From Streptomyces sp. 3214.6 (GTDB lineage Bacteria; Actinomycetota; Actinomycetes; Streptomycetales; Streptomycetaceae): a stretch of 64,000 nt of DNA. The translations under genes were made by a program, and so were the position numbers. This document shows positions 37,276-38,311 of this stretch, one piece after another. The notes beneath the pieces are model-generated. The model was not told the origin of the DNA, searched no databases, and saw only the letters and a list, made by a program, of their open reading frames with translations. Each line of letters opens with the position of its first letter. Positions within the stretch are counted from its first letter, which is position 1. The stretch covers positions 2,790,001 to 2,854,000 of the forward strand of contig NZ_LT670819.1 of assembly GCF_900129855.1 (NCBI RefSeq), given 5' to 3'.

Positions 37276-38091
37276 CTACTCGGGCTTCCTTCCCCAGGCG
37301 GTGAGCATGCCGGCCGACAGCGCGGCGCATTCGTCGGAGTCCAGGTACCGGATCGCCTCCTCAACGGCCGGCTCGTCGACCAGGCCGGTGGCGAGGATCG
37401 CCGCTCTGCTCCGCTCCCAGGTGTCCGCCCAGAAGCGGCTGATGGGACTGCCCGGCAGCAGCGGCGGCACATGAATCTCGGCGGCGACGGACGCGAGCCC
37501 CGCCCCGCGCAGCAGGTGCGGGTACGACGGCACCCAGGAGACATCGGTGCCGATGGCGGCCCCCAGCCCCTGCCACATCGCCCGCATCACCGCGGTGTAC
37601 GGCGTGCCGGGCGTCCGGTCGCTCGTCAGGTCGACCGCGTCACTGAGCACCAGCACACCGCCGGGCGCGACGAGTTCGGCGAGATGCGTGATCAGACGGT
37701 CGTGCTCGGGCAGATGCATCAGCACGAAGCGCGCGTGAACGAGCCGGAACCGGCCGGGGGCGAAGTGCGGGGCGGTGATGTCGGCCTTCAGCACGTCGAG
37801 CCCGGGCACGGCCCGCTCGGTGAGGAAACGTACGTCGCGGTCCACGGCGAGGACGCTCGCCACCCCGGCCTCGTCCAGCAGCCGGCGGGAGACCGTGCCC
37901 GTACCGGCGCCCACGTCGAGGCACCGCCATCCCGGGCCGGCCCCGAGGGCCCGCAGCCGCGTCATGGTGAAGTCGTCGTAGGCGAGGGCGCCGAAGTCGA
38001 TGCGCTCGCCCTCGCCCGCACGTTCGGGACCGAAGACGGTTTCGCCGTAGCGGCCGTCGCCCGGCGCGCCCCCGTGTGGAGGGGCGCTCAC
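37276..38091 (-). CDS. SAM-dependent class I methyltransferase
   Basis: A 271-residue methyltransferase starting at GTG 38091. SAM-binding motif I is CLDVGAGTGTVSRRLLDEAG (about 75-95), followed by VLAVDRDVRFL and VHARFVLMHLPEHDRLI (motif II/III) and GGVLVLSDAVDL. The N-terminal part contains GDGRYGETVFGPERAGEGERIDFGALAYDD, seen in Streptomyces small-molecule methyltransferases. The start overlaps the stop of a 16-codon ORF (GTGA at 38088-38091), so its translation is probably coupled to that peptide. The substrate is unknown. Confidence 0.87.
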   Translation of the reverse strand: MSAPPHGGAPGDGRYGETVFGPERAGEGERIDFGALAYDDFTMTRLRALGAGPGWRCLDVGAGTGTVSRRLLDEAGVASVLAVDRDVRFLTERAVPGLDVLKADITAPHFAPGRFRLVHARFVLMHLPEHDRLITHLAELVAPGGVLVLSDAVDLTSDRTPGTPYTAVMRAMWQGLGAAIGTDVSWVPSYPHLLRGAGLASVAAEIHVPPLLPGSPISRFWADTWERSRAAILATGLVDEPAVEEAIRYLDSDECAALSAGMLTAWGRKPE

Positions 38092-38138
38092 GTCGCAGTC
38101 GGCTCGACGCCGAGGGTGTCGTCGTCGAACGGTTTCAT
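38088..38138 (-). CDS. 16-residue peptide ORF overlapping the methyltransferase start
   Basis: ATG 38138 is followed by 15 sense codons and TGA; the product is MKPFDDDTLGVEPTAT. AGAGG stands seven bases upstream, and 13 of 15 third positions are G or C. The stop overlaps the methyltransferase GTG (GTGA). It could be a leader peptide that sets translation of the enzyme, or the enzyme's peptide substrate. I know of no homologue. Confidence 0.55.
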   Translation of the reverse strand: MKPFDDDTLGVEPTAT

Positions 38139-38280
38139 GGCCGGGCCTCTCGCGCGGTGGGACGGTGCCGGGGGACGGCGGTCCCGAGACCGCCTGCGCA
38201 CCGATCGTCCACCGGCGGCCGCCCTCGCGGCCGAGGCGCGCCGCGCCTGAGCCGATCGGCTCAGAGGGGAGCGTCGAAAG

Positions 38281-38311
38281 GCGAGGGGCGTGCGCACGGC
38301 ACGCCCCTCGC
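38281..38311 (-). terminator. Terminator downstream of the 38328-39767 aldehyde dehydrogenase
   Basis: A perfect 13-base-pair stem (38281-38293 with 38299-38311) with a 5-base loop, 17 bases after the stop codon. It separates the dehydrogenase from the peptide and methyltransferase genes on the same strand. Confidence 0.88.

Follow-up and report, generated by a model that had tools for sequence, protein, structure and literature searches.

Short ORFs whose TGA stop codon overlaps the RTG start codon of an annotated gene within an RTGA tetramer have been described in mycobacteria (Shell et al. 2015, PMC4633059). In the uPPE2-ppe2 pair of M. tuberculosis, the upstream ORF (uORF) bears a Shine-Dalgarno (SD) sequence and overlaps the downstream gene through AUGA, and ppe2, which lacks an SD, depends on translation of uPPE2, mainly by termination-reinitiation (PMC11260477). 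Overlapping gene pairs coupled by termination-reinitiation are also known (Huber et al. 2019, PMC6728339), and a recent review suggests a ribosome-delivery role for coupled uORFs (PMC12548453). Ribosome footprint data exist for S. griseus (PMC8914203).

We analyzed a window of 64,000 nucleotides from Streptomyces sp. 3214.6 (contig NZ_LT670819.1, positions 2,790,001 to 2,854,000), part of a 9.4-Mb Streptomyces chromosome whose nearest named relatives are mostly Streptomyces. A mini-ORF in this window, hereafter the leader, precedes a methyltransferase gene (Table 1). As in the mycobacterial RTGA-coupled small ORFs, the leader TGA overlaps the downstream start in RTGA; unlike them, it occurs in Streptomycetaceae upstream of a stand-alone methyltransferase, and here the relatives reveal unconstrained amino acids and repeated fusion. 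The leader resembles uPPE2 in carrying an SD and overlapping the downstream start, the dependence of ppe2 on its uORF being a feature of the uPPE2 system; uPPE2 lies behind a B12 riboswitch, whereas no riboswitch was found here and an Rfam search gave no match. The stop/start overlap, of the 4-nt RTGA type with TGATG in one relative (L058), is shared with the annotated gene pairs of Huber et al., but the first cistron here comprises only 11–72 codons of drifting sequence.

Table 1. Features of the leader-methyltransferase locus, in window coordinates
Feature	Position	Strand	Basis or remark
Leader ORF MKPFDDDTLGVEPTAT followed by stop, 16 codons; very probable coupled uORF	38088..38138	-	Translation; arrangement kept in relatives
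SD-like GAGAGG	38146..38151	-	7 nt 5' of leader ATG (38138)
GTGA stop/start overlap	38088..38091	-	Leader TGA 38090-38088; methyltransferase GTG 38091-38089
Class I SAM-dependent methyltransferase, 271 aa (Methyltransf_11/23/25)	37276..38091	-	Pfam
Conserved upstream element CCGATCGGCTCAGGCGCGGCGCGCCTCGG, probable promoter/operator	38231..38259	-	Alignment of relatives; 1 copy in genome
Possible 5'-UTR hairpin GGCGGTC-TCGG-GACCGCC	38177..38194	-	Between upstream element and ribosome site

The original prediction, of a mini-ORF with a ribosome-binding site and a GTGA overlap with the methyltransferase start, is confirmed in the window. The claimed codon bias is present as well (GC content of 0.67/0.47/0.87 at codon positions 1/2/3), but because it is drawn from only 15 codons, it is little proof by itself. 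Assuming the anti-SD sequence, calculated pairing is −5.8 kcal/mol at the leader site versus −2.2 kcal/mol at the methyltransferase start. A scan of the window found that an SD-plus-ATG mini-ORF of 10–45 codons ends at 5 of 716 RTGA sites; the pattern alone is therefore not compelling and may be due to chance, and relatives had to decide. Judged by sequence comparison, it is the conservation of the arrangement in relatives that makes the mini-ORF real.

Orthologues were collected from Streptomycetaceae and oriented to the gene strand, and leader starts were located with a weight matrix, distant and unclear relatives being left unassigned. Most close orthologues share a common arrangement consisting of a ribosome site and start with the consensus GTGAAGAGGTCCGGCC-ATG, a leader, and a TGA that overlaps the enzyme start codon (GTG or ATG). 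Reading phase was counted in 77 relatives in which the methyltransferase is at least 73.5% identical and the ribosome site and start of the leader are strongly matched. The leader lies in the GTGA (−1) phase in 64 of these, in the enzyme frame in 13, and in the third phase in none, across 31 distinct lengths, which are not to be read as independent events; lengths range from 11 to 72 codons, with 32 the commonest. Twelve of the 13 enzyme-frame cases are true fusions, and the other (L179) reflects an apparent G-run indel. In L179, a draft genome, a seven-G run at ~1480–1550 shifts the methyltransferase frame, probably through an indel or assembly error, or else the gene is truly broken. The 72-codon leader (L020) apparently grew by insertion and keeps its RTGA overlap.

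All 64 in-phase leaders stay open as far as the overlapping stop, with none earlier, whereas stops occur in 56 of 64 in the next frame and 4 of 64 in the enzyme frame; the contrast between 0/64 and 56/64 is partly a matter of base composition. The overlap is RTGA in 63 of the 64, L058 being the remaining one. Among 77 split leaders, a class that the stop/start overlap itself helped to define, TGA overlaps GTG in 65 and ATG in 12; the unbiased measure is the phase count of 64:13:0. Of seven further loci, fetched once the phase rule had been stated, five are split and one is fused, and in L249 the start lies beyond the stretch checked; a third-phase leader was seen in none. The upstream region of L249, in which the leader start was not located, resembles that of the related long-leader L020. 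Frame and overlap thus appear to be maintained by selection in the relatives. Strong support for the predicted leader role in coupled translation comes from this conservation of phase, the invariant stop/start overlap, and the repeated in-frame fusions described below.

A possible objection treats the leader as a fossil, without a role, of the old N terminus of the enzyme, and has the enzyme initiate alone at its GTG. The start site and an MxxFDD beginning are indeed common to leaders and fused N termini, and some enzyme starts retain SD-like pairing. Across relatives, again with the anti-SD assumed, mean pairing is −6.5 kcal/mol at the leader site versus −5.1 kcal/mol at the enzyme start, and the leader site is the stronger in 51 of 75, a tendency only. 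SD-like pairing is often kept at enzyme starts (median −5.8 kcal/mol), and because many relatives retain it, independent initiation there is possible. A fossil, however, would be expected to gather stops and third-phase indels, and these are missing (0/64 and 0/77, respectively), making this explanation unlikely.

To compare constraint on the leader and the enzyme, substitutions were counted in 28 non-overlapping close pairs. They fall at codon positions 1:2:3 as 160:194:120 in the leader versus 419:327:1126 in the methyltransferase (χ2 p ~4e-44), and per-site rates in 13 ungapped pairs are 0.20, 0.26, and 0.13 for the leader versus 0.05, 0.05, and 0.16 for the enzyme. Leader codons 2–9 alone (54:72:41) are likewise unconstrained. 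Because the substitutions show no third-position bias, we conclude that the amino-acid sequence of the leader drifts freely. Conservation of the peptide, which the original prediction had proposed to check in relatives, is absent, and the arrangement is kept instead. The refuting condition set by the prediction has a mixed outcome: the leader tolerates synonymous and non-synonymous changes equally, but not frame-shifting ones. The description of the peptide as acidic holds in the window (net charge −3) but not for the family, whose leaders span net charges of −5 to +7. Coding of the leader region in the enzyme's own frame was considered and rejected, as the position pattern in that frame (0.13/0.20/0.26) is not coding-like and fused relatives use another frame. 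The leaders of L202, L217, and L229 contain tandem PPFDDP-like repeats, an in-frame expansion. Overall, the start site, reading phase, stop-free path, and stop/start overlap are kept in relatives, and the amino-acid sequence is not.

The enzyme belongs by Pfam to the general class I SAM methyltransferases, and its nearest solved chains by sequence, all distant, are phosphoethanolamine methyltransferases, MitM, and DnrK-type enzymes. An AlphaFold model predicts a confident class I fold (mean pLDDT 88) with residues 1–12 below 50; such predicted disorder is in keeping with a tolerant N terminus. The adjoining genes encode an aldehyde dehydrogenase, a sortase, and a sigma factor, and comparison of flanking genes across relatives revealed no conservation. 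Because these neighbors vary, the unit consists of control region, leader, and enzyme. None of the adjacent genes is a RiPP maturation or export gene. A perfect hairpin, GCGAGGGGCGTGC-CGTGC-GCACGCCCCTCGC (38281–38311), directly follows the aldehyde dehydrogenase gene and is probably its terminator.

A control region of ~150 nt, containing the palindrome CCGATCGG, the box CGGCGCGCCTCGG, AGGATCGG, and the hairpin, goes with leader and enzyme. Within it, 38231–38259 and 38195–38215 on the minus strand are strongly conserved in relatives (CCGATCGGCTCAGG, CGGCGCGCCTCGG, GGTGGAGGATCGG), accompany the methyltransferase gene only, and are probably a promoter plus operator; a scan for promoters and terminators detected nothing. 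Use of the upstream element as the mark of a regulon was ruled out by its single genomic copy. The hairpin visible in the 5'-UTR is absent from the consensus fold of the alignment, which is weak and partly a rival to it; in this alternative fold, the left arm of the hairpin may pair instead with the leader ribosome site. A short leader preceding a methyltransferase, with a conserved 5' region and a possible hairpin, recalls attenuation, in which the peptide would stall the ribosome on a signal as upstream of erm genes. Stalling, however, needs a particular peptide sequence, and here the sequence drifts and the length varies from 11 to 72 aa; the tight stop/start overlap fits coupling, the fold of the leader region is not significant (z −0.57), and Rfam offers no match. 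We regard attenuation as very unlikely.

The window leader corresponds to the 32-codon form of L018 (MTPFDDPMSQSLAHPALEPVQDDTLGVTPTAT) minus 48 nt, in frame, and its three aspartates lie on the joint of this deletion; by this comparison, the DDD run is a deletion scar. On a tree of 172 enzymes, quickly built and with many weak branches, the distribution of split and direct starts needs 20 changes, at least 5 of which are forced by well-supported branches. A maximum likelihood two-state model places the direct form at the root (0.97) and has the split form arising 3 times and reverting by fusion 17 times, the latter number being an estimate because the tree is quick and many of its branches are weak. 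Most likely, a separate leader was lacking in the ancestral gene, in which a site of the same kind served translation of the enzyme directly. In sister pairs, the 3' part of the leader and the RTGA junction have been deleted, and translation of the enzyme begins at the leader ATG (L189/L026; L242/L237/L061; L013/L029 by reading). Leader ATGs brought in frame by simple deletions have thus repeatedly become the enzyme's own start. Because these deletions fused leader to enzyme, the deleted parts are dispensable and the leader start works as a translation start; because such fusion recurred, the free peptide is dispensable too.

These natural fusions, and the openness of the enzyme frame through most leaders (a stop in 4 of 64), raise the question of whether the enzyme is made joined to the leader, through stop suppression or a −1 frameshift near the overlap, and uPPE2 of M. 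tuberculosis did give a minor fusion product (PMC11260477). Inspection by eye of the leader ends revealed no slippery heptamer, however, and in every split leader the stop is overlapped by an RTG codon, which frameshifting would not require; such a product is highly improbable. The suggestion that the methyltransferase modifies the peptide as a substrate or RiPP-like precursor, for example on its aspartates, is almost certainly wrong, since despite its adjacency to the enzyme, the translational coupling, and the MxxFDDP beginning of many leaders, it has no amino-acid constraint (DDD in 3 of 77 leaders, 0–7 aspartates), was lost as a free peptide by fusion in ~17 lineages and so does not occur in all carriers of the enzyme, has an aldehyde dehydrogenase and a sortase as unconserved neighbors, and is paired with an enzyme whose closest solved relatives act on small molecules.

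Ribosome delivery accounts for the kept SD and start, phase, and overlap, for the free sequence, and for the tolerated fusion, and a coupled uORF is therefore the best reading, one that agrees with the reports on mycobacterial small ORFs and uPPE2 and with the role proposed in the review. Very probably, the mini-ORF delivers ribosomes to the methyltransferase by termination-reinitiation. Ribosomes would load at the leader SD and ATG, translate the 16 leader codons, and terminate at the TGA within GTGA; methyltransferase synthesis would then begin by reinitiation at the GTG that overlaps this stop. We infer that the leader is translated, that most methyltransferase synthesis passes through it, and that the transfer occurs by termination-reinitiation. 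The leader peptide is probably a by-product and not a substrate. It is conceivable, though doubtful, that a single translation-entry module can be set either way, to a split (uORF-coupled) or to a direct (fused) start, the two being interchangeable. If so, selection would flip the module repeatedly, tuning methyltransferase output, and the leader would be a mere path of open codons.

The case for a coupled uORF usually rests on single reporters or on ribosome profiles. In this family the relatives serve as natural mutants: their leaders come in many lengths, show no constraint on the amino acids, never lie in the third phase, and have been fused repeatedly. They thereby distinguish a role for translation as such from a role for the peptide. 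They also carry a warning that conserved mini-ORFs of this kind should not be called functional peptides.
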